NCBI GenBank assembly: GCA_025062325.1
Contig: JANXAL010000101.1
Coordinates: 1 to 64,000 of the forward strand
Origin: Roseiflexus sp.
GTDB lineage: Bacteria; Chloroflexota; Chloroflexia; Chloroflexales; Roseiflexaceae
Direction: 5' to 3'
Length of the DNA stretch: 64,000 nt
The translations under genes and the position numbers were made by a program. The notes under the pieces were generated by a model. That model was given only the letters and a program-made list of their open reading frames with translations. It was not told the DNA's origin and did not search any database. This document shows, one piece after another, positions 8,396 through 64,000 of this stretch. The stretch's first letter is position 1. The number at the start of each line of letters is the position of its first letter.

Positions 8396-8426
8396 AGTCT
8401 TCCTCCGCACACGCTCAGTCAACTGG

Positions 8427-8590
8427 TTAATCAGGCGATGAAGGCGGCAGCAGTGCCAGAATCTCGCTGTAAAACGTCTCGAGATCGATCAGATGACGCA
8501 CCAGGATCGCCTTGAGCACATCAAGCGAAAGTTTGCGATAAATGATTGCCACTTTTGCGAGCGCAATATCGCAATTAATCAGGACTGCGC
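8427..8590 (-). pseudogene. Relic of a HEPN (DUF86) toxin C-terminus
   Basis: The minus strand upstream of the TAA at 8427-8429 reads I-A-L-A-K-V-A-I-I-Y-R-K-L-S-L-D, then VLKAILVRHLIDLETFYSEI. The pattern Y-x-x-(L/V)-D-x-x-x-L-x-x-I-L-x-x-x-L-x-D-L-E-x-F is the C-terminal helix of HepT-like HEPN ribonuclease toxins. No start codon or catalytic R-x4-6-H motif remains, so the gene is a remnant. It lies directly 3' of an MNT-antitoxin remnant, the usual partner order. Confidence 0.6.
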
Positions 8591-8606
8591 AACACTCTCC
8601 GCCCAA

Positions 8607-8870
8607 TCACTGCATCTTCAATTGGCTTGCGGATGCGCTTAAAATCGGCGTACTCCGTCGCCAGGCGGTGACGATCTCATGGTAGACGCGCGGGCTAGGG
8701 CATGCTATCATTCTGCCATATTTGAGCGCCTGGCACGCCAGAGTGGTCGGCGCGTCGTTGAGCACAACCAGATCGACATCACGCTGCACCGCTTCCTCGA
8801 AGCGCTGCTGCAGCACCAGGCGTTCCTCGACGGAGGGCGTCCGGGCATACTCGAAGACTCTTGTACACAT
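8607..8870 (-). pseudogene. Truncated MNT-type nucleotidyltransferase antitoxin (MntA-like)
   Basis: An 87-codon frame contains SVEERLVLQQRFEEAV, then QRDVDLVVLNDAPTTLACQ and ALKYGRMI. This matches the C-terminal part of minimal nucleotidyltransferases, where V-D-L-V-x-L-N-x-A-P and x-x-G-R-L/M are conserved. The N-terminal half, with the GSxARG and first catalytic DxD of the fold, is missing and is replaced by short repeats starting at 8871. The end is also atypical. Together with the HEPN remnant downstream it records a dead MNT/HEPN toxin-antitoxin pair; AMPylation of the toxin by such antitoxins is known for the family. Confidence 0.6.
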
Positions 8871-12395: not shown

Positions 12396-12556
12396 ACTCG
12401 TCACTCGTCACTCATCACTCATTACCTGTTCCGCCTCTTGCCCCTCGCCGCCTGCCTCACACTTCTTGCCTCTCGCTCCTCGCCTCGCCCTCGCCGCTCG
12501 CCTCTTTCTTCTTACCTCTCGCCCCCTGCCTCTCGCCCCTTGCCTCTCGCCTTACG
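12396..12556. repeat. Two heptanucleotide arrays between GT39 and GT4 genes
   Basis: ACTCRTC-type units run four times at 12396-12423. A second array at 12515-12556 has six exact seven-base units alternating CCTCTCG with CCCCCTG, CCCCTTG and CCTTACG. It runs directly into the GT4 gene, whose stop codon TAA (12559-12561 on +) is part of a seventh CCTTACA unit. The DNA between the two arrays is degenerate CCTCGCC-type sequence. Confidence 0.85.
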
Positions 12557-12558
12557 CC

Positions 12559-13782
12559 TTACATCGTCGCACGGCGATATGCCTCCTCAAACCGCGCCGC
12601 CGTCGCGTCCCAGGAGAGTTCCTCCAGCACGCGACGACGCGCTGCTTCGCCGAGGCGCGCTGCGAGATCGCGGTTGTCCAGCAGACGTGCGATCGCGTCC
12701 GCCAGCGCTGCAGGGTTGCGTTCTGGCACGAGCAGGCCATGCACGCCATCGGCCATGATATCGGGAATACCAGCCGTGCAGGTTGCAACGATGGGACGCG
12801 CCGCGCCCATGCCTTCGAGAAGCGTATTGGGCAGCCCATCGACATTCCCAGCATCATCGCGCACCGAGGGCACGACATACACATCGGCGGCGGCGACATA
12901 GTGTGCTGCACGGTCTCGCGGGAGGCGCCCCGGAAGGATCACCGCCTCTTCAACGCCGAGCCTTCTGGCGCGCTCCTTCAGTTCGTCGTACAGATCGCCG
13001 TATCCTGCCAGCACAAGCGTCGCACGTGGGTGGAGTGCTCGTATGTGAGGCATTGCATCGAGCAGATATGTAAATCCTTTTTTATAGACCATTCTGCCCA
13101 TAGCGAGAATCAGCGGCGTATCGGGAGGCAGGTTTAGTTCAGCGCGCACCTGGACGCCAGCCCGTGGATCGGGGCGGAAAGCATGCGCGTCCACGCCATA
13201 TGGGATGATTATGGTCCGTTCAGGCGGCGCGCCGAGTCGCACTGCGCGCTGGCACAGATCGCGGCTGCAGGCGGTAATGGCGCCCGCGCTGCGAAAGACT
13301 GCCGCTGCACTCAGTGCAAGGATCCACCCCTTGTATGCAAGGTACACATCAGAACCGTGCAGACTGACGACCAGTGGTAATCGGCGCAACCGGGCAGCAA
13401 TCAGCGCGGGCGCGCCGTTCGGCAGCACCCAGTGCGCATGAATCAGGTCGAACTGGTAGCGGCGCGTCAGGTGCAGCAGCGCCCGCAGTGACGCCGCCAG
13501 CGCGAATGGAGCCGCTGCCAGCGCCGCCTGACGCAGACCGACATCGGCACGCAGCGACTCGGCGTAGCCGTAGACGTTGAGCGCGCGGTGCGGCGCGTAG
13601 CGGTAAAAGTGCAACCGCACGCCATGCTCAATTGGCGCACGCCGTACATCGGGGTGATACGGCGCGACGACATGCACCGTGTGCTGCCGCCGCGCCAGCG
13701 CGACTGCGATTGACTCAATGAATGGCGCTGTCGTTTCTCCGACATACTTCGGGTACGACGAGGTGAGCATGAGAATGTTCAT
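12559..13782 (-). CDS. Glycosyltransferase family 4
   Basis: A retaining GT-B glycosyltransferase acting on the cytoplasmic side. The start MNILMLTSSYPKYVGETTAPF is the classic N-terminal strand and glycine-poor loop of GT4. IHAHWVLPNGAPALIAA and VVSLHGSDVYLA follow. The C-terminal nucleotide-sugar domain has IPYGVDAHAFRPD, LILAMGRMVYKKGFTYLLDA, VLAGYGDLYDEL, LPGRLPRDRAAHYVAAADVYVVPS and the E-x7-E region GLPNTLLEGMGAARPIVAT. The 407-residue length is normal. It sits between two GT39-like membrane transferases, suggesting a shared surface glycan. The stop codon lies in a heptamer array. Confidence 0.93.
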   Translation of the reverse strand: MNILMLTSSYPKYVGETTAPFIESIAVALARRQHTVHVVAPYHPDVRRAPIEHGVRLHFYRYAPHRALNVYGYAESLRADVGLRQAALAAAPFALAASLRALLHLTRRYQFDLIHAHWVLPNGAPALIAARLRRLPLVVSLHGSDVYLAYKGWILALSAAAVFRSAGAITACSRDLCQRAVRLGAPPERTIIIPYGVDAHAFRPDPRAGVQVRAELNLPPDTPLILAMGRMVYKKGFTYLLDAMPHIRALHPRATLVLAGYGDLYDELKERARRLGVEEAVILPGRLPRDRAAHYVAAADVYVVPSVRDDAGNVDGLPNTLLEGMGAARPIVATCTAGIPDIMADGVHGLLVPERNPAALADAIARLLDNRDLAARLGEAARRRVLEELSWDATAARFEEAYRRATM

Positions 13783-13802: not shown

Positions 13803-14002
13803 GTGGGGCCGTTGCAATACGGTGGAGCCGTTGCAATTGCAACGGCTCTGTCTGCACCTTTCCACCTTCACATCATCACCGCGTTCGCCTCTTGCCTCTT
13901 GTCTCTTGCCTCTCGCCAACAGCCGTTGCGATGCAACGGCTCTGCCTGCACCTTTCCACCTTCACACCATCACCACATTCGCCTCTTGCCTTTCGCCTCA
14001 TT
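13803..14002. repeat. Duplicated composite repeat: palindrome, linker, heptamers
   Basis: A unit of about 95 bases occurs twice. Copy one has a perfect 24-base palindrome with half-site GAGCCGTTGCAA (13825-13848), a linker containing CACCTTTCCACCTTCACA, and CCTCTTG-type heptamers (13888-13916). Copy two has AGCCGTTGC-GAT-GCAACGGCT (13921-13941), the same linker, and heptamers CCTCTTG, CCTTTCG and CCTCATT (13982-14002). The final unit contains the stop codon of the GT39 gene at 13998. A partial third palindrome copy is at 13807-13817. Confidence 0.85.
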
Positions 14003-16862
14003 GCGGGAATTCATACACAATCGCGGTCATTTCCTTCGTCATACCGCGAAAATCGGCGCGATACGTCGGCGTCCGGTAAACTTCGCGGAAACCCAGCGCT
14101 GGATCGGCGACCAGGGTATCGAGAAAGCGGCGCACTTCCGGCGCCGGGCGCTGTAAGGTGTCGATCATCAGATAGCGCACGTTGTAGCGATGCGCTAGGC
14201 GCAGGAAGATCTCCCGATCAGTCGTGTACGGGATCATGAGCGCCGGTCGTTCGCTGTGCCAGTTGAGTTGCCAGGGGTTGCGCGTCATCACCACAGCATC
14301 GGGCGGCGTGTTGCGCTTCAGCCAGGCGTAGGCGTCAAGGTCGGCGCGGTACAGGTTTGGTTCGTCGCGCACCTTTTCGGCGATCGGGGACCACGACAGT
14401 GCGATGATTGCCGCGATCAGCGCCACAGTCGCCAGCAGCCCGAACGGCGTCCAGCGACCATCAGACAGCGCTGCGATTCGGTCGTAGATGCGCCACGCCG
14501 TTGCAGCGGCAAAGAGCGCCAGCCATGGCATCACCACGACCCAGTAGCGCTCTTCGTTCGTGTGCCAGTAGACGATCAGGAACAGCGCGTATGGCACGAA
14601 TGCCGCGCCGAGCAGCGTCATCAGGCGGCGATGCGATGCGGTTGCGGCAACAGCGCCAAAGATCGCCAGCCATGCACCTGTATCGAACAGCAGGCGATCC
14701 TTGTCGGCGCGCCCGAACCAAGCACTTAGCTCCATCGGAGCGTGTTGCCAGGAGGGAATCAGATAGTCGCGCAGTGCACGTGCCTGACGCTCCATTTTCA
14801 CCAGAGTGCGGTCGAACCCCCAGCGCAGAATCCAGCTATGGTCAGGAACCCCGGGTCCTTTCAGGCCTTCCTCGGTCGTATACACGGCGTAGATCTGATC
14901 CCACGTCGTATATTCCAACACCCACGCATCCTTGCTCTCGGTCGAGTAGAACGGCACGCCAAAGGCGAGCATGTTGCGCGCCAGATACGGCGCCAATAGC
15001 ATGCATGCCACCCCACTCCACGCCGCCACCGGCGCCAGCCGCACGCGCAGGTCTGCTAGGGTTCGTGGCAGTGTATCGAAGCGTGTGCGCAGAAACCATA
15101 GCCCCATGCCCAGCGCGATCAATCCGCCGCTCCCCGGCTTCTGCAGCAGCATGAGACCGGTCAGCGCGCCAGAGAGGATGGTCAGCGCCAGGCGGTGCGA
15201 CACTCTGCGGAAGCGCAAGCATGCACCAAGCGATTCCGCATCCGGTGCGCCCCAGGCAAGGTAGAGCAGCACCAGCGCGCCAAACGTAAACAGTGCGAAC
15301 CCCAGGTCGTTCGTCACGTAGATCACCAGTTTGAAATAGAGATGGCTGGTGATCAGCAGCGCTGCGGCGACCAGCCCAACGCGCCGATCCCACAGGCGCG
15401 CGCCAGCTTGGTAGACCGCCAGCGCCAGCAAGAGGAGAAACAAAAGATTTGGTATCTTCGCCGACCAGTTGCTGACGCCGAAGATTGCAAACGAAGCCGC
15501 CACCCACACCGGGTGCAGCAGAGGCCAGGTTTCCTGCGGGCGCGTGACGCCATTGTAGAGGCGATAAAACTGCGTCACATAATCGACCGCCCATCCTCGC
15601 CCGGCGAGGAGATTGCGCGCCACTACTGCATTATCGGCATAGTCGGCGTGACCGACATAGGGCATTGCCAGGATGACCGCCCCCAGATACCCGCACCATA
15701 CTGCCAGCAGCAGCGCCAGCGCCAGCGCCGCACCGCGCCGCGACCCGACGATGCGAACTGTCGCCTGCGCCAGCCGCGGCAGCCCATTACGTCCGTAGAT
15801 TAGCATTAGTGTCAAACCGCCGAGCGTGATTAGAGAATAGATAAGTGAGTCAGGGAAGAATTCCCAGAACTGTTCCGGGCGTGGCATTGGCGGAGCGTGC
15901 CGAACAATCATCGCTGTCAACCACACGCCCGCTGCTGCCAGCAGCCCGTATCCAAGGGCAGACCCACGCGCAAGGCGCCGCGCCAAACGGAGCGGATATC
16001 GCGCCAGAGCAGCACGATACTGCCAGATCAGCAGTACTGCGCCAGCGGCAGCAAACCATGGCAATAGCGCAACTGTCCAAATGCGCACTGCTGCCAGTGC
16101 AACTGCCGCACCGCTGACCAGCAGCGTTGCGGCAACGAAGGCGAGCGATGGTTGGCGGCTGACGCTTGCCAAAGCCAGGAACCAAACCACGCCGTTTATG
16201 GTCAGCCAGAGCACCGGCGCAGGCGCTGGCATGTACGGACCATCACTGGCGCTGCGCACACTAATTGAATCGATGCGGATTCCTTTCGGACGCGGATCCG
16301 TATAGCGGCGCGTATTGGTAAAGACATCCGATACAACGAGGGTCAGCGTCAGGTCGCTGCCGCGCCGCGCTGCGGCGGGAATGGCGATATCGTACTCTGA
16401 CCATTGCTCGGTTGGCGTAAAACGCGCGACGAGCGTTTCGTCCGCTATGACGGTCACTTCCGGCTGGCGCGTTGCACGGTTGAGAACGTCGGGCGGCCAG
16501 CCCTGCGCGCGCACTGTCGCTGTGAGTGCACCTCCGCCCAGACCAGGCAACCTCACCTGCGCCCCCTGGTGCGTCCAGCGACTGCGTCCGCCCGGCGCAT
16601 CGGCAGTGATTTCATCGCCATAGAATGTGAGCCGGTCGGCAGCGCCGGCACCTTCGCTTGCCGGTAAAAACAGGCGGTCGCCGAGCCAGCCGACAGGGAT
16701 CGTCGCGCTGACCGGCGCCTGATACGCAAAAATGCCTGCCAGCAGTGCCAGCGCAATAATCAGCGCCAGGCGCATATCCAAATAATGCAGCGCCAGGCGC
16801 GCATACGCGCTAGCGGTCGGCTGGAGTGCAGGCGGATCACCCGAAATTGCGTTGCTGCTCAC
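13998..16862 (-). CDS. Large membrane protein: N-terminal beta-sandwich plus GT39-type glycosyltransferase
   Basis: 954 residues in a modular layout. One membrane helix (about 30-50) is followed by an extracytoplasmic beta-rich domain (about 55-215, containing RLTFYGDEI and PRPKGIRIDSISVRS). A group of helices (225-300) then leads to a GT39/ArnT-like core (about 310-780) with YVGHADYADNAVVARNLLAGRGW as the acidic first loop, followed by more helices and a soluble tail. It probably moves a sugar from a polyprenyl carrier outside the cell. The start GTG at 16862 has a TATAAT only seven bases away, suggesting a leaderless transcript. The same N-terminal layout recurs in the broken genes at 43638-48611. 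Confidence 0.8.
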   Translation of the reverse strand: MSSNAISGDPPALQPTASAYARLALHYLDMRLALIIALALLAGIFAYQAPVSATIPVGWLGDRLFLPASEGAGAADRLTFYGDEITADAPGGRSRWTHQGAQVRLPGLGGGALTATVRAQGWPPDVLNRATRQPEVTVIADETLVARFTPTEQWSEYDIAIPAAARRGSDLTLTLVVSDVFTNTRRYTDPRPKGIRIDSISVRSASDGPYMPAPAPVLWLTINGVVWFLALASVSRQPSLAFVAATLLVSGAAVALAAVRIWTVALLPWFAAAGAVLLIWQYRAALARYPLRLARRLARGSALGYGLLAAAGVWLTAMIVRHAPPMPRPEQFWEFFPDSLIYSLITLGGLTLMLIYGRNGLPRLAQATVRIVGSRRGAALALALLLAVWCGYLGAVILAMPYVGHADYADNAVVARNLLAGRGWAVDYVTQFYRLYNGVTRPQETWPLLHPVWVAASFAIFGVSNWSAKIPNLLFLLLLALAVYQAGARLWDRRVGLVAAALLITSHLYFKLVIYVTNDLGFALFTFGALVLLYLAWGAPDAESLGACLRFRRVSHRLALTILSGALTGLMLLQKPGSGGLIALGMGLWFLRTRFDTLPRTLADLRVRLAPVAAWSGVACMLLAPYLARNMLAFGVPFYSTESKDAWVLEYTTWDQIYAVYTTEEGLKGPGVPDHSWILRWGFDRTLVKMERQARALRDYLIPSWQHAPMELSAWFGRADKDRLLFDTGAWLAIFGAVAATASHRRLMTLLGAAFVPYALFLIVYWHTNEERYWVVVMPWLALFAAATAWRIYDRIAALSDGRWTPFGLLATVALIAAIIALSWSPIAEKVRDEPNLYRADLDAYAWLKRNTPPDAVVMTRNPWQLNWHSERPALMIPYTTDREIFLRLAHRYNVRYLMIDTLQRPAPEVRRFLDTLVADPALGFREVYRTPTYRADFRGMTKEMTAIVYEFPQ

Positions 16863-17883: not shown

Positions 17884-18150
17884 ATCTCCCCCTGCTCCCC
17901 TGGTGGGAGAAGGGGGGGATGAGGCTCACAAGTGTAGGTTTTTTGGCAAGCCCTCACGTTGCATTGCCCGTTTCAGGCGACAGGACGCCCCACCTCCCCC
18001 TTCTCCCCTGGTGGGAGAAGGGGGTCGGGGGGATGAGGGGGGAACAAACCGTCAGGATGCGGCAAATCCGCTTCGCACGCCAAAAAGCCTATACTTGAGA
18101 GCATCTCCCTTCTCTCCTGGTGAGAGAAGGGGACGGTGGGATGAGAAAAA
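17884..18150. repeat. Three copies of the CCCCTTCTCCC palindromic repeat
   Basis: Copies at about 17886-17926, 17992-18040 and 18104-18146 share CTCCC(C)TTCTCCCCTGGTG, then GGAGAAGGGG and GGGATGAG. The second and third are followed by a trailing GCGTCAGGAYG-like segment. A second element reading TTTTTTGGCAAGCCC occurs at about 17938-17953 and again, with GTTTTTTGGCAAGCCCACAG, at 18250-18269. These fill the gap upstream of the MalT-like gene. Confidence 0.75.
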
Positions 18151-21113: not shown

Positions 21114-23154
21114 GAATAAACTCTCGTGCAAACGGCGGCGCATCGCCGTCCGACGTCTCGTCGAATTCGCGCGCCGCCAGATGCCCTGCAAAGACTGCCT
21201 GCGCGATAATGTGCGGCGCCTCGGCGTCGCCGATGACGCGCAGAGTGCGGATGCGACCGTCGGCGCGCGCTGGCGCCAGGTCAATCGCCAGCGCATCGCG
21301 CGGCGTGCGATCAGCGACGATCACGACTGCATCACACGCTAAGTCGGTCGCGCGATGTGTGACGATGTTGCGCACCGTTACGGCGTTGGCATAAATGGCG
21401 CTAAGCGCGCTGCGCGCATGGATGCCGACGCCAAGGTCGTGCAGACGGCGCTCGATACGCTTCTGCTCGAGCGTGAACTGCGACCAGTACGACACCAGCG
21501 GCGCTGGCGTGCACAGAACGACGCTGCATCCCCGGCGCGCCAGCAATTCCGCCAGCACACCCCCCATGTAGTAGTGATCATCGTCGTAGATCACGACGCG
21601 ACCCTCTGGCAGGCGTCCGTCCATGATGTCGTCGGGAGTGAAGACGTGCGGCAGATCGCATCCAGGGATGGGATGCTGCACAGTGCGCCCCACGCCGTCG
21701 CGTCGCCAGACCGCACCGGTGGCGATGATTACGTGCTCGTAGCCGCTCTCCAGAACATCGGCGGCAGTCATTGGGTTCCCCGGCAGCAATTGCACGTGGG
21801 GCATTCGGGCAATTGCCGTCAGGCGCCAGTCGATCACACGCCGCCATTCGCTCAGTCCGGGCAGCCGCGCCTCACGCGCCACCCGTCCGCCCGGTTCGCG
21901 CCGCGCCTCGACCAACGCCACCTGATAGCCACGCTGACCGAGCGCTCTGGCGCACTCCAGCCCGGCCGGACCCGCGCCGATGACCAGGACTTCTGCATTG
22001 CTGCGCTTCGGCGCGATCGTTTCGGGATGCCATCCGCGCCGCCATTCCTCCCCCATTGTCGGATTCTGGGTGCAGCGGATCGGCACGCACTTATTGTCGC
22101 TGGAGACGCAAATGTTGCATCCGATGCACTCGCGGATGTCCTCGATGCGTCCTTCCCGAATCTTGCGCGGCAGAAAGGGATCGGCGATTGACGGACGCGC
22201 CGCGCCGATGAAATCGAGAATGCCACGCTGCACTGCCGAGACCATCGCCTCCGGCGAAGTGTAGCGCCCTACACCAACCACCGGTTTGCTTGTCAATTGT
22301 TTGACGAAGGCGATATACGGCTCCTGGAACCCTTCCTTCTCAAAGCGCGACGATGCTGAGTCATTGCTCCAATCGGAAATGTTGACATCCCAGAGATCGG
22401 GGAGTTCCGCCAGCATGGCTACGATCTCATACGCTTCACCTTGGCTGGTGAGGCCCTCATCGCCGAGCAATTCATCGACAGCCAGGCGCACCGCAACTGC
22501 GCAGCGGTCACCGATGGCATCTTTTGTATCCTCAATCAACTCGCGGAACAGGCGCACACGGTTGGTCAGGCTTCCGCCGTACTCATCGGTGCGGTCGTTA
22601 AAGCGGCGCAGCAGGAAATGCATTGCCAGGCTCAGCCCATGCCCTGCGTAGCAGTAGATGATGTCGAAACCGGCGCGTTTTGCACGCAGCGCCGCGTTTC
22701 GATGCCAGCGGCGCAGGTTCCGAATATCCTCACGGTCCATCCGGCGGCACTGCCCCGGCTCGAAGCCTGTGCCTCCCATCAATCCAATTGATCGCGGACC
22801 AAGGGATACGGCGCGAGAGTAGTAGTTGAGCGCATCGTGGCCGTTGTGGGTCAGTTCGATCCCCGCCAGCGCGCCATGGCGATGCACAGCGTCCGCTATC
22901 AGCGCCAGCGCTGGAATATCATCGTCGCTCCACAACCGTCCCTCGAAGAACGGCGCCAGATCGCTTGAATGATGGATCTCGACCTCTTCCGTGCAAACCA
23001 CGCCCCAACCGCCCTCGGCTTTGATGCGGCGCATCTCCGCCAGCGCCCGCGGCATGCGGTATCCCATGCCGTTGCAGTGTGGAACCTGATAGAAACGGTT
23101 CGGCGCAGTCACCGGTCCGATTCGCACTGGCTCAAAGAGAATATCGTACGTCAT
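21094..23154 (-). CDS. Trimethylamine/dimethylamine/histamine dehydrogenase-family flavoprotein
   Basis: An iron-sulfur flavoprotein that oxidatively cleaves an amine. The N-terminal TIM barrel has RFYQVPHCNGMG, where Cys27 matches the residue that carries 6-S-cysteinyl FMN. Tyr169 and His172 (YAGHG) and Asp265 (DWSND) match the catalytic triad of trimethylamine dehydrogenase. Cysteines 343, 346, 349 and 361 bind the 4Fe-4S cluster. ADP- and NAD-type dinucleotide folds follow (VLVIGAGPAGLECARAL). RRGWHPE is a family hallmark. In the substrate pocket Trp262 is kept, but the positions of Tyr60 and Trp355 of the trimethylamine enzyme are Glu57 and Asp353. Asp at the latter position is typical of histamine dehydrogenase, so a charged or diamine substrate is more likely. 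Length 686. Electron acceptor unknown (an ETF in relatives). Confidence 0.88.
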   Translation of the reverse strand: MTYDILFEPVRIGPVTAPNRFYQVPHCNGMGYRMPRALAEMRRIKAEGGWGVVCTEEVEIHHSSDLAPFFEGRLWSDDDIPALALIADAVHRHGALAGIELTHNGHDALNYYSRAVSLGPRSIGLMGGTGFEPGQCRRMDREDIRNLRRWHRNAALRAKRAGFDIIYCYAGHGLSLAMHFLLRRFNDRTDEYGGSLTNRVRLFRELIEDTKDAIGDRCAVAVRLAVDELLGDEGLTSQGEAYEIVAMLAELPDLWDVNISDWSNDSASSRFEKEGFQEPYIAFVKQLTSKPVVGVGRYTSPEAMVSAVQRGILDFIGAARPSIADPFLPRKIREGRIEDIRECIGCNICVSSDNKCVPIRCTQNPTMGEEWRRGWHPETIAPKRSNAEVLVIGAGPAGLECARALGQRGYQVALVEARREPGGRVAREARLPGLSEWRRVIDWRLTAIARMPHVQLLPGNPMTAADVLESGYEHVIIATGAVWRRDGVGRTVQHPIPGCDLPHVFTPDDIMDGRLPEGRVVIYDDDHYYMGGVLAELLARRGCSVVLCTPAPLVSYWSQFTLEQKRIERRLHDLGVGIHARSALSAIYANAVTVRNIVTHRATDLACDAVVIVADRTPRDALAIDLAPARADGRIRTLRVIGDAEAPHIIAQAVFAGHLAAREFDETSDGDAPPFAREFIPLNVQR

Positions 23155-23308
23155 GTGAGTATGGTTCGCGATAGCACACGGGACGGATCGGGATGGAAAG
23201 GCGTCGTCGGAGCACGGCTATAGCACACGGATAAACACGGATCGAGACGGATTCGGACGGATCGATCTTCTCGGCTCTCAATTCCTGGTTCTCAGTGCTC
23301 AGTGCTCG
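23155..23308. repeat. Simple repeats and CTCAGTG heptamers at gene end
   Basis: ACGGAT-rich degenerate sequence (23180-23265) is followed by TTCTCAG, TGCTCAG and TGCTCGC, a seven-base periodic run at about 23289-23309. The stop codon of the O-methyltransferase gene (TCA at 23299-23301 on +) lies inside it, so the protein's last codons are repeat-derived. Confidence 0.75.
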
Positions 23309-27534: not shown

Positions 27535-28971
27535 ATGGTCAGGCGACGAACAAAACTCATGCTCGGCATCGGCGCGCTCGCCGGTCTCTTGATCGGCACA
27601 ACCGGCACCTCCTTCGCACAGGAGGTTGATCCCGCAATTGCGGAAATGGGCGTGGTCACCGACACGATGTGGCTGCTCATCACGGCATTCCTGGTCTTCG
27701 CCATGCAGGCGGGCTTTGCGCTCGTCGAGGCTGGCTCCACGCGCTCTAAGAACATGATCAACATCATGTTCAAAAACTTTATGGACTTCTGTGTGGGCGC
27801 GCTGGTGTTTTGGATGGTTGGTTGGGGAATTGCATACGGCGCCAGCGTTAGCGGTCTCTTTGGCTCTGATCAATTCTTCCTGGGTGATGTGCGCGAAGCG
27901 GGAAGCGTGCCAACTCTGGCTTCCTGGATGTTCCAGGTTGTGTTCGCCGGAACGGCAGCGACAATCGTCTCCGGCGCAATGGCGGAACGTACCAAGTTCA
28001 TCGCCTATCTGATCTACAGCGTCGTCATTTCGGCGCTCATCTACCCGGTCGTGGTTCACTGGGTGTGGAGCGGCGCTGGCTGGCTCAACGACTACGATCC
28101 GACTACGACAGGCGACTGGGGCTTTACCGATTTTGCCGGTTCGACAGTCGTTCATAGCGTCGGCGGTTGGGCGGCGTTGATGGGTGCCTGGCTCCTCGGT
28201 CCGCGGTTGGGGCGCTACGGTCCCGACGGCAAGCCGCGCGAAATCCCCGGTCACAGCGCGGCGCTCGCCGGTCTTGGCGTGTTCATTCTCTGGCTGGGCT
28301 GGTACGGTTTCAACCCCGGTAGCCAACTGGCGTTCAAGTCGCAGGCCGATGCCGACGCGATTGCGTTGGCGGCGGTTACCACCACGCTTGCTGCTGCCGC
28401 TGGCGCTGTGGGTGCGATGATTGCCAGCTGGATCAGGAGTGGTAAGCCGGAACTTGCCGCCACGCTCAACGGCGTGCTCTCCGGTCTAGTAGCGATTACA
28501 GCCGGTTGTGCATACATGCGCCCGCTTGATGCGGTCATTGTCGGTCTGGTGGCAGGTCCGCTCTATGTGATCTCGATGAAGTGGATGGAGTCGCTCAAGA
28601 TCGATGATCCGGTCGGCGCAGTGCCGGTCCACCTGGTGAACGGCGTCTGGGGCACGCTGGCGGTCGGCCTGTTCGCAACCATCGAAGGCAACACTGGTAC
28701 GGTCGGTCTGTTTGCTGGTGGTGGTCCGCAGTTGCTCATCGCTCAGATCGTCGGCATCCTGGCGATCGGTGCGTGGAGCGCTTTGACAAGCTTCCTGCTC
28801 TTCTTCATCCTCAAGCGCACGATCGGTCTGCGCGTGTCGCCCGAAGAAGAGGAGCTCGGCCTCGACATCGGCGAGCATGGTACGGTCGCTTACCCGGATA
28901 TTCACAAGATGCCGGAGCCGGAGACGGTCAGTGCTATCACTGGTAAACCGCTCTCCAGCACGGCTAAGTGA
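27535..28971 (+). CDS. amtB: Ammonium transporter Amt
   Basis: Inner-membrane ammonium channel, supplying glutamine synthetase encoded upstream. A cleavable signal peptide (about 1-28, ending near TSFA) precedes the conserved N-terminus with DTMWLLITAFLVFAMQAGFALVEAG. The pore histidines are present in STVVHSVGGW and PVHLVNGVWG. Eleven membrane helices are expected over 478 residues. GHSAALAGLGVFILWLGWYGFNPGS is the Amt signature. The C-terminal cytoplasmic tail (EEEELGLDIGEHG) is the part that PII proteins contact in relatives, yet no glnK is adjacent. The ATG follows GGAGAAAGGGAAGG. An attenuator-like hairpin lies in the leader. Confidence 0.96.
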   Translation: MVRRRTKLMLGIGALAGLLIGTTGTSFAQEVDPAIAEMGVVTDTMWLLITAFLVFAMQAGFALVEAGSTRSKNMINIMFKNFMDFCVGALVFWMVGWGIAYGASVSGLFGSDQFFLGDVREAGSVPTLASWMFQVVFAGTAATIVSGAMAERTKFIAYLIYSVVISALIYPVVVHWVWSGAGWLNDYDPTTTGDWGFTDFAGSTVVHSVGGWAALMGAWLLGPRLGRYGPDGKPREIPGHSAALAGLGVFILWLGWYGFNPGSQLAFKSQADADAIALAAVTTTLAAAAGAVGAMIASWIRSGKPELAATLNGVLSGLVAITAGCAYMRPLDAVIVGLVAGPLYVISMKWMESLKIDDPVGAVPVHLVNGVWGTLAVGLFATIEGNTGTVGLFAGGGPQLLIAQIVGILAIGAWSALTSFLLFFILKRTIGLRVSPEEEELGLDIGEHGTVAYPDIHKMPEPETVSAITGKPLSSTAK

Positions 28972-43637: not shown

Positions 43638-44432
43638 CTATTTCCTGTTTGATGGTGATAGCCGATATACGGTCATTTCATCATCCTCGTACACCAGTGC
43701 GAGTTCCGCTCGCTGCGCTACGCGTTCGCGCCATCCAGGCCACTCACGGTCCATGGCGGCGCGGTGCACCAGAATATACTCGCCCCCCAACCGTCGGAGG
43801 GTCATCAGGGCGCGCTCCGATGGAAATTCGCGCAGCCATGCCATATCAGCGGTTGCGCCAGCCGGCTCGAAGGTGCCATAGCCCGTCAGGCTCGGACGTT
43901 TCGAGAACAGTGCATAGTACTCGATTGCGCCGGAGAATGAGTCGGGAACCTGCAGCGTCGCGCCGGACCCTGGCTGGTTCGCAAGCCAGCGATCGACCGG
44001 TCGCGGATCGGTTGATGCACTCCAGGGCGCGGCGTGCGCCGCCTCCAGCAGAACGCCGCAGAGCGCGATCACTCCGAGCGCCTGCCATGCTCGCCGCCAC
44101 TGCGCAAAACCGGTCAGACTGAGAGCCGCCAGCAACTCGACGCATACCTGGACGTAGAACGCTGTGCGCGACCAGGCGCGAATGCTGCGCAGCACCGGTA
44201 CGTGCTCATATGCCAGGAGCGCCGGGAGTGAAATGGTCCAATCGCCAACGCGCAGTTCCGGTCCCAGACTCAGGACAAAGCTCACAATCCCGATCCCCAG
44301 CAATGTCCACGCAACAGCGCTCCGTCGCCAGCGCCACATCCCGACACCTGCCAGTGCAAGGAGCACAATCCTGGCGCCACGAGGCGCGCGCCTGCGGTTT
44401 CGGGCGCAATCTGCGCCGCCCATGCGCCCCAA
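43638..44432 (-). pseudogene. C-terminal piece of a frameshifted membrane glycosyltransferase
   Basis: This frame continues the protein of the piece at 44282-45916 from about 44370. The upstream frame reads ETAGARLVAP and then degenerates, while this one resumes with IVLLALAGVGMWRWRR. It holds three or four membrane helices, then a soluble tail with SYPS-type sugar-transferase C-terminal features (LRRLGGEYILVHRAAMDREWPG). A shift of one base would restore the join. The start codon given is only the first in the frame and is not a real start. Confidence 0.7.
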
Positions 44433-45916
44433 AGCGCATGGTAACGACTCGGGGTCAGGTAGTCGAGCGGATACGCCGCGAGTTCGAGGAGCGAGGCGTA
44501 GTCATGGCGCGTCTCACCGCCGCGCAGCGCCTGCAGCGTCGGGTGGGCATAGGGCGCAAGGAGCGCCAGCGCGATCAGCGGCGCCGTCAGCGCTGCGGGC
44601 CACGCTGAGAGCAAGGTGCGCGTCTCCCTCCAGGGATGGCGCATGATCAGCCATAACGCCAGCATCAGCCACAAGATCGGTCCGTAGTACCACGATGACC
44701 ACGCCGCCAGCGCGACTCCCAGGCCGGTGAGCAGAGCATCGTGAGCGCGGCGCCAGCGGATAAATCCTTCCAGTCCATAGAGTGCAAGGACGATCCACTG
44801 AGTGCCGACCATATTCATCTGCCCCAGGGCGTGCTGGTAGCGCCAGAGACAAAAACCAACGCCAATGCCTGCGATGAGCGCGCCCAGGCGTCCTGCCCCC
44901 AGGCGTTGCGCCAACAGCGCGGTGAAGAGCGACGTCAGAATGAATGACGCAACGATCAGGAGGTTGTACGCGAGCGTCGGTCCGGCGAGCCGCGTCAACG
45001 GCAGTCCCAGCAGCGTATGCGCGGGGGTTAGCTCAGAGTACGCCAGTTCGTATCCAGTCGGGTAGAACAGGTATGGAACGAAGGTGGGCGAACGTCGTTC
45101 AGCGAGTGCGTCGGCGAACCACTGCAGTTTCCAGACATACTCCAGATTGTCGCCAGGGGGACCGGGAACGAACCGCATCGGGTCGGGAATGAGCGGCGCC
45201 AGGATGAACGCCGTCATCAATGTCGCCGCGCTGGTGACAAGCAGGGTGAAGGATAGATGTTGTGGGTTGCAGGTTGCAGGTTGCAGATTGCAGGTTGCAG
45301 GTTCAACGCTTGCTTCTGGACCTGGCTCAGATGCGTTAGGTTGCACACCGCTATGAGTCTCGCTATCAGGCTGCTGAACATCGCGCGTTGATGCGATGTT
45401 GCGATCTTGCTGACGCCGGGCAATCAGCACAACAAAGAGCGCGAAGATGATCGTCAGTCCGAAGGTCAGCAGCAACGCTTCCCAGCGCTGGGCGAAGCGC
45501 AGATCAGAGTGGCGCATGCTCAGGCTGATCAGGGCGAACAGTGCAACAACCACCCATCGCAGCGCACCGATGCCAGATGCCTGTAACGCCATCAGCAGCG
45601 TCAGCGCCGCACCGGTCACTGCGATCGTCTGCACCGGCGCCAGCCATGAGGACTCACTGAGCGCCGCAAACGTTACGGCAAATGCCGCCACTCCCAGATC
45701 GCGCCGATCACCTGGCAGCCATGTTGTGGCGGTGCGCAGGGTTATTGTATTTTCATTCGCGCTGATCAGCGAACGTGGCGCCAGCAGGCGATAGACGCGC
45801 GGCACAGTGGTGACAGGAAGAGTAGCCAGGGATGCGGCATTCAATTCAACATCAACCAGTTGGCGGCGCAATCGCCGATACACCAGGCGGTGCAGCGAGC
45901 CGCAACGCCAGGGCAT
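44282..45916 (-). pseudogene. Middle piece of a frameshifted membrane glycosyltransferase
   Basis: Ten or more membrane helices with LVDVELNAASLATLPVT at the start (end of a beta-sandwich domain) and GDNLEYVWKLQWFADAL, FYPTGYELAYSELTPAHTLLGLPL, the first-loop region of a GT39-like enzyme. The true upstream part is the frame at 45852-46355: GVSAIAPPTG runs into a stop there, whereas removing one T near 45854 would continue with DVELNAASL. The coding sequence also contains a heptamer array (45265-45303) encoding repeated ATCNLQP. Two separate frameshifts and the insertion argue for a decayed gene. Confidence 0.75.
45265..45303. repeat. Heptamer array GGTTGCA inside a coding frame
   Basis: Five and a half seven-base units, GGTTGCA four times with one GATTGCA, lie within the middle glycosyltransferase fragment. 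Similar TGCAAC-type units are found between genes at 8963-8990. Three units make 21 bases and hence a seven-residue peptide repeat. Confidence 0.85.
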
Positions 45917-46355
45917 GGTCAGTCAGCCCTCGCGCTGACAATCGGAGGGAGGCTTCCGCCGTTGTCCAGCGAAATGGACGTCCTTCCGATGCGCTAAACT
46001 CCGCTTCGTGGAAACCGGTGACAATCCCGCGATCACTCGCGCCGATAATGACCTGCTGCTGCGTCTCCAGCGGACGGATGAGGAGCGCCGCTGATACGAG
46101 CGCAATCGCAATGGTAATCGCAATGTTGAGAACAATGCCAAAGCGCAGCGGCAATGGACGACGCACTGCCGCGCTTTTCCTTGCGCCGCCGGTATCGGTT
46201 GCGGAGACGCCAGGGGTTGCCAGGGAGAGTGTCGACTCGTCAGATGGGCGCTCCAGATGTGGGGTGGGTCTGTTCATTGCCTCGCCATCTTTATCTTTCT
46301 CACCCGTGCTACGAGTCGTGCTACGGCGTCCATTCGCTTGCGCCAGCAGTTTCAC
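45852..46355 (-). pseudogene. N-terminal piece of a frameshifted membrane glycosyltransferase
   Basis: 167 codons: a polar N-terminus, one membrane helix (RFGIVLNIAITIAIALVSAALLI) and the first strands of an extracytoplasmic beta-sandwich (GFHEAEFSASEGRPFRWTTAEASLRLSARG). This matches the N-terminal layout of the intact protein at 13998-16862. The frame stops at 45852 where the next fragment's sequence should follow, so it is read as the start of one broken gene spanning 43638-46355. Confidence 0.7.
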
Positions 46356-46394: not shown

Positions 46395-47873
46395 TCATTT
46401 TATGTGACAAATGGCATCCTGCCAGCCAGTGCCAAAGCAGGAGTCTGGCAGCGGCGCGCTGGTGCGTTGCATAAGTATGATAAGTATGATAGCGCCAATG
46501 CGCACTATCGTAACGAACAGCCCGCGTCGCTCCAGTTCGCGCAGCAATTCTTGCTCACGGTTGGCAGTAGCGGTCCCCATGCCATAAATATCGTGAACAA
46601 TAAATTCAACGGATGGCGGTTGCGGTGCACCGGCAGGATTGACGTAATTGACGCGGACAAAGGGATTGGGAAAAACAAACGCCTGCCTGCGATGCGTCAG
46701 GTGCGGATGGAGCGCCTGGCTTGCCGAGACCGCTGAGTCGTGCGGGATGTGCGCGAGCGCATAACGACGGACATATGACCATTCTACATCGCGCACCGAC
46801 GGAAATAATGCATCCTGTATTCGCAACGGGACCGTCGAAGCCGTCCACGCCGCACCCAGTGTTATGCAGAGCGTACACGCTACAAGCGCTGCACGCGGCG
46901 CATGCAACCGGCGCTCGAGCATAATGGCGGCGTCGAGACCCGCATACGACAACAGAGCGACGGTGAGCGCATCGTAGTGGGAGAACAGTTCTCTCTGCGC
47001 ATCGTAATTGCTGAGCATATTCAGTACAAGCGCTGGCAGCGCCAGCACCGCGCGCGATGGGCGGATTAACGGCAGCATGCCGAGCGGAGCCAGAACGAGC
47101 GCAAGATAGCGAAGATTTTCTGGCTGAAGCAGGTCGAGAATGATAAGACTTGGCCGCTGCAGGATGGTCAGAAGAATATCACGCGGTGTTGCGCCGTAGC
47201 GATCAAAACGGGCGGCGTGGAGGCTCTGGGATTGACCATTGAATGCTGGCAGTACAAGCAGTGTGGCAATGCTGAACCAGACAAGAGAGCAGAGGACGAG
47301 AGCGCTGCCCCATCGTCGTTCGCCTCGAATAAAGAGCCATGCGCCCAGCCATCCGATGGTTATCGCAAAGTTCTCTTTAGCCGCGCACACAGCGATCGCT
47401 GCTACGCCGATCACAGCGGCGTTTCGCTGTTCAATTCCCCAGATCGCCACCAGAATGGCTGTAGCTGCCAGTGCGTCTGGATGAAAATGAAACAGCGCCA
47501 TGTTGTGCGTAGACGGATGCAGCAGATACGCTCCGGCGACCAGTGCGCCCATCCATGGCGATCCACGGATGCAACCAATGCGATAGAGCGCCAATCCTCC
47601 AATACCGACCGCTAGACTTTGGACCGTCAACAGAACCCGTACATCGGGTGCAACCAGATACAACGCTGCCAAAGGATACAGCAGGACAGCCGCATGATCG
47701 CCTAATAGGTGAACGCCCATGCCCGTGCTGTACGCTGGCAAGCCGCGACTGATGAGCCAGAGCCACTGGTCAAAAAGTCCAAGATCGTACGCCCCCGTTG
47801 CATACCGATGATGCAGCGCCAAGCTGCCCCACGCAACGACGCTGATCCACGCAAGTGTCAGCGAACCGATCAC
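46395..47873 (-). CDS. DUF2079 membrane protein (probably the 3' part of an amber-split gene)
   Basis: About 490 residues with roughly ten membrane helices. The N-terminal YATGAYDLGLFDQWLWL followed by LLGDHAAVLLYPLAALYLV and LHPSTHNMALFHFHPDALAATAILVA is the DUF2079 (PF09852) pattern, a GT39-related family of unknown donor. The soluble C-terminal part includes HPHLTHRRQAFVFPNPF. The GTG at 47873 has no ribosome site, and the frame is open without interruption for 16 codons upstream to a TAG. Beyond that TAG, in the same frame, lies the gene at 47922-48611. I read the two as one ancestral gene split by a nonsense codon. Confidence 0.75.
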   Translation of the reverse strand: MIGSLTLAWISVVAWGSLALHHRYATGAYDLGLFDQWLWLISRGLPAYSTGMGVHLLGDHAAVLLYPLAALYLVAPDVRVLLTVQSLAVGIGGLALYRIGCIRGSPWMGALVAGAYLLHPSTHNMALFHFHPDALAATAILVAIWGIEQRNAAVIGVAAIAVCAAKENFAITIGWLGAWLFIRGERRWGSALVLCSLVWFSIATLLVLPAFNGQSQSLHAARFDRYGATPRDILLTILQRPSLIILDLLQPENLRYLALVLAPLGMLPLIRPSRAVLALPALVLNMLSNYDAQRELFSHYDALTVALLSYAGLDAAIMLERRLHAPRAALVACTLCITLGAAWTASTVPLRIQDALFPSVRDVEWSYVRRYALAHIPHDSAVSASQALHPHLTHRRQAFVFPNPFVRVNYVNPAGAPQPPSVEFIVHDIYGMGTATANREQELLRELERRGLFVTIVRIGAIILIILMQRTSAPLPDSCFGTGWQDAICHIK

Positions 47874-47921
47874 AAGGTCGGGAGGCGACAGGCGGTGCAG
47901 CGCGCCGCTAAGCTGACGCAG

Positions 47922-48611
47922 CTACAGAGCGCCACGTCCGCGAGAGAGCATCCTGTCAAACACCAGCGCTGCACTTATTGCGAATGTTGCGCCCCAGGCG
48001 ACCATCCATCCCCACACTCCCATTCCTGCAACAATACTGGCGCCGCACGCGCCCGCCAGAATCCCGCAGCGCAGCGCCAGCAGGATGAGCAACGTCATCG
48101 CGGGCGCCAGCGCGAGGAGTGCGAATCGCTGCCAGGTCTGCGGACTCAGCGGACGGAGTACGATATTATCTGTAAATACGCCAAGCAAACGCCTGTCCTG
48201 GGGGGCGCGCGCAGGCGCTGTTTCCAGCGTCACCAGTTGACCTGTTCCAGCGCCTGCAGGTGAGAGCGCCAGCATCAGGCGACGTGGCACAGGACCGGAT
48301 AGCAGGGATAGAGATGTCCGCTGATCCAATCGCAGGGTCAGCGTCCGTTCCGGCAGAGGACTCGGTGAGTATGTCCGAAACGACAGCACGACCGCATCAC
48401 TTGAAAGAGGGGGAATGAGAATGTGTGACGTTGGTCGTGTAAAACGGTACTCGCCGCTCTCGTTCCGCTCGACCGGATAGAAATCGATCAGGATCGCTGG
48501 ACGATGAACAGCGTTGCTCTCCCTGAGCAGCGCCCCGACAGTCAGGAGGAGAGCGGCGATGATCAGCATCCCGCTGATGACCTGCTGGTGCCATTTGCGG
48601 GTGGGTTTCAT
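47922..48611 (-). CDS. Membrane/beta-sandwich N-terminal module, split from DUF2079 protein by an amber codon
   Basis: 229 residues: one membrane helix (about 12-27), an extracytoplasmic beta-rich domain (about 35-155, FTRPTSHILIPPLSSDAVVLSF) and three or four helices. It lacks a transferase domain. The same module forms the N-terminus of the intact GT39-like protein at 13998-16862. It ends with TAG at 47922-47924, and codon-by-codon the same frame continues into the DUF2079 protein. Unless the stop is read through, both products are partial. The ATG at 48611 has no clear ribosome site. Confidence 0.7.
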   Translation of the reverse strand: MKPTRKWHQQVISGMLIIAALLLTVGALLRESNAVHRPAILIDFYPVERNESGEYRFTRPTSHILIPPLSSDAVVLSFRTYSPSPLPERTLTLRLDQRTSLSLLSGPVPRRLMLALSPAGAGTGQLVTLETAPARAPQDRRLLGVFTDNIVLRPLSPQTWQRFALLALAPAMTLLILLALRCGILAGACGASIVAGMGVWGWMVAWGATFAISAALVFDRMLSRGRGAL

Positions 48612-48716: not shown

Positions 48717-48807
48717 GTCACCATTAGTGCGTCGTCGATCTCAGCGCTCGTAGCGCTAGCTATCGACGTCTTGTTTCAAAAACCGCCTCCAGGCGTTCGC
48801 GCCTTTC

Positions 48808-49980
48808 CTACTCCTGGTCGTATGCTTTGATGTACAGATCGATGATCTCCTGGCGGGTAGGCTTGCGCGGGTTGTTTGCCGGGCTGCCGCTGTCAATTGC
48901 AGCATCCGCCATCGATGGCGCCAGTTCAATCAGGCGTTCGCGCTCAACCCCCAGTTGCCTGAGCGATGGGATCTTGATGTCGCTAACCAGACGCCGGATG
49001 GCATGCACCACGCGATCGGCGGCTTCCATGATCGACAGACCCTGGATTGGTTCACCCATGGCTTCGGCGATCTGCGCGTACCGCACCGGGTCGCCCACGA
49101 TGCTGAACTCGGTGACGACCGCCAGCAATGCTGCGTTGGACACGCCATGCGGAATGTGGAAATGCGCGCCGATCGGGCGCGACATACCGTGGACCAGCGC
49201 CACCGACGAGTTACTGAATGCCACGCCCGCCTGAAACGCGCCCAGCATCATTTGCTCGCGCGCCTCGATGTTGTTGCCGTTCGCCCAGGCCTGGCGAATA
49301 TTCTGCGAAATCAACCGGATTGCCGACAGACAGAAGATATCAGTCATCGGCTGACGCTTCACCGACACATACGCCTCGATGGCATGCACCAACGCATCGA
49401 CGCCAGTCGCTGCCGTCACGTTCTGCGGCGACGAGACTGTAAGCATCGGATCAACGATGGCAATGGTCGGCATCAAGTAGGGGCTGCCGATCAGCATTTT
49501 CACATCGGTCTTCTGGTCGGTGATCACGGTATAGATCGTCGCCTCGCTGCCCGTGCCAGCTGTTGTGGGGATGGCGACGACCGGCACGCCAGGTGCGCCG
49601 ATTTTCCCGATCCCCTTGTACTGCTCAATCGATCCGGGGTTGGTGACCAGCACGGCGATGGCCTTCGCTGTATCAATGGGGCTGCCGCCGCCCACCGCCA
49701 CGACGAAGTCGCAGTTGCCTTCTTTGTACGCCTGCAATCCTTCCTGAACATATTCCACAACCGGTTCGGTATTCACGCCAGCATAAACGGTACTAGCGAT
49801 GCCGCTCTCGGCAAGGTACTGCTCGACTTTACCGACCAGCCCCAGACCGAGCATAATTTTGTCAGACACAATCAGAGCCTTCTTCCAACCACGCTTCTGA
49901 CACTGAACGCCGACTTGCTCCACAGCGCCGGAGCCTATCAGCACTTGCGAAGGCATCAAAAACTCTCGCGGCGGCATCAT
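48808..49980 (-). CDS. Iron-containing (group III) alcohol dehydrogenase
   Basis: A 390-residue NAD(P)-dependent dehydrogenase of the Fe-ADH family. The nucleotide site is VVAVGGGSPIDTAKA and IPTTAGTGSEAT. The metal ligands are all present: Asp195 and His199 in GVDALVHAIEAY, His264 in ALVHGMSRP, and His278 in HFHIPHGV. The substrate could be ethanol, butanol, lactaldehyde or 1,3-propanediol; sequence alone does not decide. AAGGAGG lies upstream of the ATG at 49980, and TTGACG-17-TACACT is a plausible promoter at 50031-50059. It is a single-gene unit. Confidence 0.93.
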   Translation of the reverse strand: MMPPREFLMPSQVLIGSGAVEQVGVQCQKRGWKKALIVSDKIMLGLGLVGKVEQYLAESGIASTVYAGVNTEPVVEYVQEGLQAYKEGNCDFVVAVGGGSPIDTAKAIAVLVTNPGSIEQYKGIGKIGAPGVPVVAIPTTAGTGSEATIYTVITDQKTDVKMLIGSPYLMPTIAIVDPMLTVSSPQNVTAATGVDALVHAIEAYVSVKRQPMTDIFCLSAIRLISQNIRQAWANGNNIEAREQMMLGAFQAGVAFSNSSVALVHGMSRPIGAHFHIPHGVSNAALLAVVTEFSIVGDPVRYAQIAEAMGEPIQGLSIMEAADRVVHAIRRLVSDIKIPSLRQLGVERERLIELAPSMADAAIDSGSPANNPRKPTRQEIIDLYIKAYDQE

Positions 49981-56395: not shown

Positions 56396-56655
56396 CTTTT
56401 GCGAATTAATCCGGTATCACACGGTCTACCCTGCACGGGCGGGCTTCGCAACAGCTGAGCTGCGGGCTGATGAAGGCGAAGAGATACCTCCAGTAAACCT
56501 GCGGCCAAGCCGCGCGTTCTCCGAGCTACGGGCTAAAGCCCTCGCGCAGAACGTAGAAGCCCTGGAGGGGCTTTTGTGACCTCAGCCGGGGCTTATGGAG
56601 TTTGAGAAAATAATCCAGTATCGCCTAAACTAGCCCGCGCAGGCGGACTTCCCTT
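56396..56655. repeat. Interspersed GCGGGCTT-type repeats with a terminator
   Basis: The gap holds fragments of a widespread intergenic repeat (GGGCGGGCTTCGCAACAG, CTGCGGGC, CTACGGGCTAAAGCCC, AGCCCGCGCAGGCGGACTTC). AAGCCC-TGGAG-GGGCTTTT (56557-56575) is a short terminator-like hairpin. It separates the convergent methyltransferase and pdh genes. Confidence 0.6.
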
Positions 56656-57963
56656 TCACCCCACCAGCAGCGCCAGCGGCTGCTCCAGCAATCGCTTCAC
56701 CTCGTTGAGAAACCGCGCAGCTTCGGCGCCGTCGGTGACGCGGTGGTCCGCCGAGAGGGTCAGCATCATCAGGTGCTTCGCCACCACTTCGTCACTGTCG
56801 TCCTTGAATGCCGGAACGCGCCGGATCATGCCGACCGCCAGGCTGGCTGCCTGCGGCGGCGTGATGATCGACGTGAACTCGGTGATGCCGTACATCCCCA
56901 TGTTGCTGACCGTAAACGTGCCTCCCTGGAGCAGATCGGGCGTGATCTTCCCCTCGCGGGCCAGGGCGATGAGCCGTTTGGCTTCACGCGCGATCGAGCC
57001 GAGCGAGCGATCCTGACAATTCGTGATTACCGGCGCCATCAGTCCGTTCTCCAGCGCCACCGCGATGGCGATATTGACTGTCGGATGCTGGATGATCCCC
57101 TCGTCGCTGTAGGAGGCGTTGAGATTGGGGAAGGCGAGCAGTGCGCCGGCGCACGCTTTGACGACCATATCGTTAACCGAGAACTGTTCCTCTTTTGCGC
57201 GTCCGGCGTTTGCCTGTGCACGCAACGCGAGCGCCGCGCCCATATCGACTTCGATAGACACGAAGATATGCGGGAACTGTTGCCAGCTTTGCAGCATGCG
57301 GCGCGCGATGGTCTTGCGCATATTGCTGAGCGGCGTAACGACGCCTGCTGCTGGCGACGGCGCGGTAACCGGAGCGGGGACGGGCGGCGGCGCCGCTGGC
57401 GCTGGCGCAGGCGGCGGCGCGACCGGGCTTGGGGTTGGCGCTGGTGCGACCGGGGCGGGAGTTGGCGCTGGCGCAGCGCTGCGCGCAGCCAGATATGCCT
57501 CGATGTCTTCTTTCACGATGCGTCCAGCCGGACCAGTGCCGCGCACCTGGCGCAGATCAATGCCATGCTCGCGCGCTAGGCGACGCGCTAGCGGCGATGC
57601 GCGAATCTCACCCGCCTCCACTGCGGGCGCTTCGCCAACTGGCTGCGGAGCGACTGGTGCAGGAGCTTCGCCAACTGGCGCGGATGCGGCTGGCGCCTCA
57701 GCGGTGGGTGCAGACGCCTGTGCGCCATTCCCGCCGTCGAGCCGCGCAATGACCGCGTTGACCGGGGCAGATTGCCCTTCCTGCACAACGATCTCGGTCA
57801 GAATGCCTGACGCGAACGCCTCGATCTCAATGGTGACCTTATCGGTCTCGATTTCAGCAATCGGTTCGCCGCGGCGAACCATGTCACCCGGCTTTTTCAG
57901 CCAGCGGACGATCGTGCCCTCCTGCATATCGAAGCCCATTTTGGGCATAGTAATGTCGGGCAT
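56656..57963 (-). CDS. pdhC: Dihydrolipoamide acyltransferase (E2) of the pyruvate dehydrogenase complex
   Basis: Core of the complex, moving the acetyl group to CoA. A single lipoyl domain (1-75) carries the lipoylated lysine Lys42 in EIETDKVTIE. An Ala/Pro-rich linker leads to the E1/E3-binding domain (about 123-160, RASPLARRLAREHGIDLRQV). A second Ala/Pro linker of about 50 residues precedes the catalytic domain, ending in HRVTDGAEAARFL with the active-site His and Asp. 435 residues. The ATG at 57963 has GGAGAG upstream; it lies 11 bases past the pdhB stop. Acyl specificity (pyruvate versus branched or acetoin) is inferred from the operon only. Confidence 0.92.
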   Translation of the reverse strand: MPDITMPKMGFDMQEGTIVRWLKKPGDMVRRGEPIAEIETDKVTIEIEAFASGILTEIVVQEGQSAPVNAVIARLDGGNGAQASAPTAEAPAASAPVGEAPAPVAPQPVGEAPAVEAGEIRASPLARRLAREHGIDLRQVRGTGPAGRIVKEDIEAYLAARSAAPAPTPAPVAPAPTPSPVAPPPAPAPAAPPPVPAPVTAPSPAAGVVTPLSNMRKTIARRMLQSWQQFPHIFVSIEVDMGAALALRAQANAGRAKEEQFSVNDMVVKACAGALLAFPNLNASYSDEGIIQHPTVNIAIAVALENGLMAPVITNCQDRSLGSIAREAKRLIALAREGKITPDLLQGGTFTVSNMGMYGITEFTSIITPPQAASLAVGMIRRVPAFKDDSDEVVAKHLMMLTLSADHRVTDGAEAARFLNEVKRLLEQPLALLVG

Positions 57964-62802: not shown

Positions 62803-62885
62803 GCGCGTTCAGCGCCCGGCTGCTGCAGGGCGAACGGTTCCGGGTTCTCAGCATTCTTGGTTGTAAAGCGCTAGGGAGAACTGCT

Positions 62886-64000
62886 ATGTCCGAGCGGGTA
62901 TACGATAAGTTTACCAAACGCGCAAAACAGGTGTTGCAAATCGCCACCGAAGAGGCGCGTGCGTTCAATCACCCATACATCGGCACCGAGCACATTCTGC
63001 TTGGGCTGATCCGTGAGGGTGAGGGCGTCGCGGCGCGCGTACTCGATGAACTGGGAGTCAAGCTAGCCCAGGCGCGCCACGCCGTTGAGTTCATTGTTGG
63101 TCATGGAGAGGGCCCGCCGCGACAGGATCAGGATCTTACCGCGCGCGCCAAGAAGGTGATTGCATATGCCGTCGAGGAAGCCAAGCGCCTGAACCACCAT
63201 TACATCGGCACTGAGCATCTGTTGCTCGGGTTGGTGCGAAACGGCGAAGGGGTGGCGACTGGTGTTCTCGATATCCTGGGAGTGTCGCTTGAGCAGGTGC
63301 GCACGAATGTCATGCGCGTGCTGCGGCAGGGCGCTGGCGCAGGCCTCGAACGCCCCGGCTCTGTTGCGTCTTCATCGCCGTCGCAGCGGCAGAGCAAGAC
63401 GCCCTACCTTGACGCGCTGGGCACTGACCTGACAGAGATGGCGGAAGCCGGCCGTCTCGATCCGGTGATTGGCCGCCAGCACGAGATCGAGCGCGTGATC
63501 CAGATTCTCAGCCGCCGCACGAAGAACAACCCGGCGCTGATCGGTGAGCCAGGCGTCGGCAAGACGGCGATTGTCGAAGGACTGGCACAGCGGATTGTTG
63601 CTGGCGAGGTGCCGGATAGCATCAAGGGCAAGCGGGTGGTAACGCTCGATATGGGCGCCCTGGTTGCAGGCACCAAGTACCGCGGTCAGTTCGAGGAGCG
63701 TCTGAAGCGGGTCGTCGATGAGATTAAGGAAACTCGCTGCATCCTGTTCATCGATGAGTTCCATACGATCATTGGCGCTGGCGGCGCCGAAGGCACGCTC
63801 GATGCTGCCAATATTCTGAAGCCAGCGCTGTCACGCGGCGAGTTGCAGACCATCGGCGCCACAACGCTCGATGAATACCGCAAGTACATCGAGCGCGACG
63901 CAGCGCTTGAGCGACGCTTCCAGCCGGTTATGGTCGAGCAACCGACGGAGGAAGAGACAATCGAGATCCTGCGTGGCATCAAGAGCCGCTATGAGGATTT
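62886..64000 (+). CDS. clpC: ATP-dependent Clp protease ATPase ClpC (5' part, cut by window edge)
   Basis: The first 371 codons of a Hsp100 unfoldase that feeds substrates to ClpP. Two Clp-N repeats open the protein (residues 6-70 and 80-145, each with [13 protein letters not shown] or [13 protein letters not shown]). A linker with [12 protein letters not shown] follows, then the first AAA+ domain: Walker [10 protein letters not shown] (220-228), Walker [10 protein letters not shown] and sensor/arginine region [32 protein letters not shown]. The ATG at 62886 has GGGAGAA upstream. The middle domain and second AAA+ module lie beyond the window. Confidence 0.95.

Follow-up and report, generated by a model that had tools for sequence, protein, structure and literature searches.

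The window, that is the whole stretch of 64,000 nucleotides of Roseiflexus sp. that was analysed, carries on its minus strand two adjoining genes with damaged reading frames: gene B, which is interrupted by an in-frame amber codon, and downstream of it gene A (Table 1). The frame of gene B begins with an ATG (48609-48611, minus strand) and runs through 229 codons to the TAG. Past the TAG, the same frame stays open for 508 codons and closes at a TGA (46395-46397, minus strand). The GTG 16 codons past the TAG is the start that ORF finding assigns to a DUF2079 protein. The preliminary description had read this region as the frame of a 229-residue protein that ends at the TAG and continues through 16 codons into the DUF2079 protein, and this was borne out exactly. 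The open run behind the TAG is longer than any of the in-frame runs past the ends of 27 conserved genes of the window, which extend for 3 to 181 codons. About one in three adjacent gene pairs have their frame in common, and a same-frame neighbour is by itself weak evidence.

Table 1. Positions of the features of gene B and the adjoining gene A in the window.
Feature	Position	Strand	Basis
Gene B, interrupted frame: 229 codons, TAG, 508 codons, TGA	46395..48611	minus	Frame reading; single 747-codon orthologous frame in G009
N-terminal module of gene B: membrane helix, beta-sandwich (model residues 42-154), further helices	47925..48611	minus	AlphaFold model, of modest confidence here
In-frame amber TAG, codon 230; the orthologue has TGG (Trp)	47922..47924	minus	Alignment with G009
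GTG, first ATG/GTG/TTG codon past the TAG in the gene B frame; possible restart, without Shine-Dalgarno-like motif upstream	47871..47873	minus	
GT-C core of gene B, Pfam DUF2079 (PF09852)	46398..47921	minus	Pfam E 1.4e-63; VIA-align to ArnT and PglB
In-frame 9-bp tandem duplication near the 3' end of gene B, not in G002 or G009	46471..46488	minus	Sequence and alignment
Gene A, glycosyltransferase-like, broken by two frameshifts (+1 and -1)	43641..46220	minus	Intact orthologues of 831 codons (G003) and 809 codons (G009)

Strong matches to gene B were present in three of the 26 genomes of the family: the source genome (G000), a genome of the same genus (G002) and a Chloroflexi MAG of another genus (G009, contig JACAEQ010000028.1). 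The other genomes of the family gave weaker, partial matches, and a contig scan for further orthologues returned G009 again together with three remote Prochlorococcus loci. In G009 both halves of gene B form one uninterrupted frame of 747 codons, the product of which is 57% identical to the read-through product of gene B. The codons around the junction are GGC GCT CTG TAG CTG CGT CAG in gene B and GGC GCC GAC TGG TTG CGC CAG in G009. The TAG and the TGG thus differ by one G-to-A change within a common LRQ context, and the linker across the stop aligns without gaps (W-LRQ). Relative to this intact orthologue, gene B contains a premature in-frame stop. The 747-codon frame and the TGG opposite the TAG support the earlier claim of one large gene split by an amber codon. 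G009 provides the one intact full-length orthologue, and Trp as the earlier state is read from that copy.

The DNA of G002 is 94-96% identical to gene B, and its contigs leave a gap over the junction: one stops in the N part at codon 211, and another opens in the C part at codon 551. G002 was accordingly rejected as a second witness of the junction, as its contigs end on either side of codon 230. Orthologues consisting of two separate genes with ribosome sites, the case that the preliminary description had named as contrary to its reading, were not found among these copies, that is, the one intact orthologue and G002, which lacks the junction. In 57 of 65 matches, the homologue of the N-terminal module is part of a frame of at least 638 codons; the tally was made by hand and includes the row of gene B itself and, among the eight shorter frames, rows truncated at contig ends. 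The module therefore usually forms the front of a larger protein.

The core half of gene B matches PF09852, a family of predicted membrane proteins, over profile positions 6-442 of 459, with 216 bits against a curated cut-off of 28.2 (E 1.4e-63), and the G009 orthologue likewise matches the family. In comparison to PF09852, gene B adds the N-terminal membrane/beta-sandwich module, and its frame is interrupted between module and core. The AlphaFold model of the read-through frame, based on 18 sequences, had a mean pLDDT of 67.5 and a pTM of 0.65. Residue 230 falls within a linking helix (226-241) for which local confidence is low, about 50-57, and which is followed by a core of many helices. 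Residues from about 235 to 722 of this predicted model superpose with VIA-align on the GT-C glycosyltransferases ArnT (Z 20.8, 409 residues, rmsd 5.1), PglB (Z 20.4, 397 residues, rmsd 4.5) and Pmt4 (Z 20.9, 315 residues, rmsd 4.2). On the ArnT match, and at the mean model confidence given, the core was assigned to the GT-C fold; it resembles ArnT, PglB/STT3 and Pmt4 in fold while sequence identity is about 10%. GT-C enzymes have a catalytic Asp past the first core helix, and also in the gene B protein an invariant Asp (276) is located past the first core helix. The product is probably a GT-C glycosyltransferase-like membrane protein that would function in sugar transfer. As far as the model can be trusted, the amber codon falls between the accessory module and a GT-C core that is all but complete, and translation that ends there leaves the whole core out. 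A sequence search for solved structures matching the DUF2079 half found none at E values up to 1, and a literature search for 'DUF2079' found no papers in the collection searched.

The preliminary description had also likened the layout of the read-through product to that of the intact protein encoded at 13998-16862. This agreement extends to the general layout only, without likeness at the sequence level. BLASTP with either half gave best E values of 0.49 and 0.68, by which similarity was rejected, and the Pfam match of that protein is PMT_2 and not DUF2079.

Divergence between G000 and G002 was compared over 24 gene pairs and the two parts of gene B; at least three same-strand pairs (21118-23295, 28498-28968 and 62829-63677) were left out of the set. 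The dS of gene B was 0.062 in the C part and 0.112 in the N part, while the 24 other pairs ranged from 0.267 to 0.827. Because these values are far below those of the other pairs, gene B appears to have been recently exchanged between the two lineages. The dN/dS of gene B was 0.456 in the C part and 0.444 in the N part, against 0.011-0.190 in the other pairs, a difference which supports but does not prove relaxed constraint on gene B relative to the neighbouring genes, as its small dS and short divergence can inflate the ratio. The excess of amino-acid changes over the highest ratio among the other pairs had a P of 0.0008. Gene B as a whole differed from neutrality with a ratio below 1 (P 0.004); taken by itself, the C part has about 20 changes and was not distinguishable from neutral (P 0.11). 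As dN/dS is below 1 and the 9-bp insertion is in frame, both halves seem to have been constrained until recently.

The exchange is about one gene long, and the raised identity reaches the 3' end of the adjacent gene at 48808-49980, which we take to be an alcohol dehydrogenase gene, at about 48800-49000. The DNA between gene B and this gene, as well as the 3' end of the latter, is more alike in the two genomes than the body of the gene.

Of the three explanations offered in the preliminary description, the nonsense mutation agrees best with the data; an error of sequencing or assembly is possible, and nothing positive was found for programmed readthrough. The TAG of gene B probably arose by a genuine nonsense mutation, not long ago, in an accessory gene that is decaying. 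The intact gene would encode the N-terminal membrane/beta-sandwich module, a short helix and the GT-C glycosyltransferase-like core (DUF2079). A single G-to-A change would have turned Trp codon 230 from TGG to TAG, and ribosomes starting from 48611 would halt there, leaving a stub of 229 residues. Because such a stub would lack the catalytic core, this copy is most likely non-functional, being either a recent pseudogene or a loss-of-function allele. The setting would be a variable glycosyltransferase locus in which the adjoining gene A is broken too, by two frameshifts, and in which gene B has passed between lineages and evolves under weak constraint. What speaks against this reading is that a single intact orthologue, 57% identical, supports it, that the closest relative, G002, misses the junction, and that dN/dS below 1 and an insertion in frame point to constraint on both halves until recently. 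The amber codon, the TGG of the single-frame orthologue, the patchy occurrence of the gene, the lesions of gene A and the raised dN/dS are observations; a real mutation, Trp as the earlier state (one orthologue), the absence of a functional product and the sugar-transfer function are what we infer. If this is true, gene B would be an ordinary case of the turnover of an accessory glycosyltransferase-like gene in a Chloroflexi genus, involving exchange, weak constraint and loss by point mutation.

According to Belinky et al. 2021 (PMC7918605), in-frame stops occur widely in bacterial genes and in most cases do not last long, and the dN/dS of such genes is fairly high yet below 1. Gene B resembles these cases: one premature stop breaks a frame that is otherwise coding, dN/dS is raised without reaching 1, and the stop is likely short-lived. 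It differs in that the criterion of that study is a stop common to two species, whereas the stop of gene B is known from one genome. Gene B matches the description and adds nothing to it. A literature listing for Roseiflexus and pseudogenes contained nothing on gene B in the titles or the starts of the abstracts.

Gene A is present in three pieces in the window, with one base added at about 45863 and one base missing between 44368 and 44369. It is missing from G002, where the flanking genes are only about 100 bases apart, and contigs of G001 end inside it. A Pfam search with the G003 copy of gene A found no family.

A wrong base call, a faulty assembly or a minority variant in a population consensus as the source of the TAG, with the organism's own gene intact, is fairly unlikely. 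The source genome is a draft of 143 contigs, estimated as 96.81% complete, the TAG is one base away from TGG, and the contigs that end inside gene B in G002 and inside gene A in G001 suggest that assembly of the locus is difficult. However, the lesions are clustered: genes A and B (4.8 kb) together contain three, while the 35 other gene spans checked against orthologues (45.9 kb) contained no internal stop or frameshift. The probability of all three falling in genes A and B was 0.0008, a post hoc value that assumes uniform and independent lesions; a first count with 23 spans had given 0.003. The 35 spans were compiled by hand: rows flagged for stops passed as unbroken if the stop was in the leader 5' of the gene, within a stop-to-stop frame, or coincided with the usual end of the gene, antisense rows were ignored, and a toxin-antitoxin remnant at 8418-8870 was left out of both the spans and the P value. 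Furthermore, the substitution in gene B lies outside any homopolymer, and the raised dN/dS of the gene points to real relaxation.

It is quite improbable that the nonsense mutation left two polypeptides in production, the 229-residue module and a DUF2079 protein of 492 residues made by restart at the GTG (47873), so that the gene was split while the GT-C core was kept. An ongoing gene fission, in which a free-standing DUF2079 enzyme and a membrane/beta-sandwich partner are both still in use, is doubtful to the same degree. The GTG opens within the first helix of the core, which spans residues 244-270 of the model, and the GT-C matches start at model residues 230-246, which means that the core is nearly complete downstream of it. 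DUF2079 frames that stand alone, about 480 codons long, also occur in the order, and they keep a restart within reach. Against it, the GTG has no Shine-Dalgarno-like motif and is 48 nt from the TAG, although the argument from the motif is modest because the gene B start at 48611 likewise has no clear one. The C part is also as relaxed as the N part by dN/dS. No promoter-like site was found between the TAG and the GTG; the region as a whole gave a single match, where 1.0 was expected, and it lies elsewhere. Gene B would lend itself well to testing whether the core of a GT-C gene is still produced after an interruption.

Readthrough of the UAG, whether programmed or tolerated, with a low yield of full-length protein is very unlikely. 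Gene B still looks protein-coding overall (dN/dS below 1), and in-frame stops combined with dN/dS below 1 are widespread in bacteria according to Belinky et al. 2021 (PMC7918605). However, TAG is a normal stop here, and the only intact orthologue, that of G009, has a sense codon in its place. Of two decoding means, a suppressor tRNA and a stimulating RNA structure, neither was found: the CTA anticodon of a suppressor tRNA was present in none of the 46 tRNA matches (ARAGORN/Rfam), and the fold of the RNA past the TAG was no better than that of shuffled sequences (z 0.20). One of the 46 matches, in C21, was not called by ARAGORN; inspection of its Rfam alignment by eye gave the anticodon as Val GAC. 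Genome-wide reassignment of UAG was rejected, as TAG ends 10 of the 27 conserved genes in the window.

That two ancestral adjacent genes shared a frame by chance and were later fused in G009 is hardly credible, common as stand-alone DUF2079 proteins are in the order, since the linker is gap-free across the stop, a single base separates the two states, no ribosome site is present and the N-terminal module usually leads in frame into a long core. A nonsense mutation in one gene, as preferred here, is also a warning against annotating the halves of gene B as two genes.

The remnant at 8418-8870 on the minus strand is a decayed toxin-antitoxin pair of the nucleotidyltransferase-HepT-like type, of which a frame of 87 codons and a fragment of 41 residues remain, with a change of frame near 8668. 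Its counterpart in G003 consists of two open frames matching the Pfam families Polbeta and HepT-like. Dispersed short repeats were detected at about 56456-56658, 12430-12560 and 17885-18100, each with many copies, roughly 70-96% identical, in one or more of the genomes G002, G003, G004 and G005.
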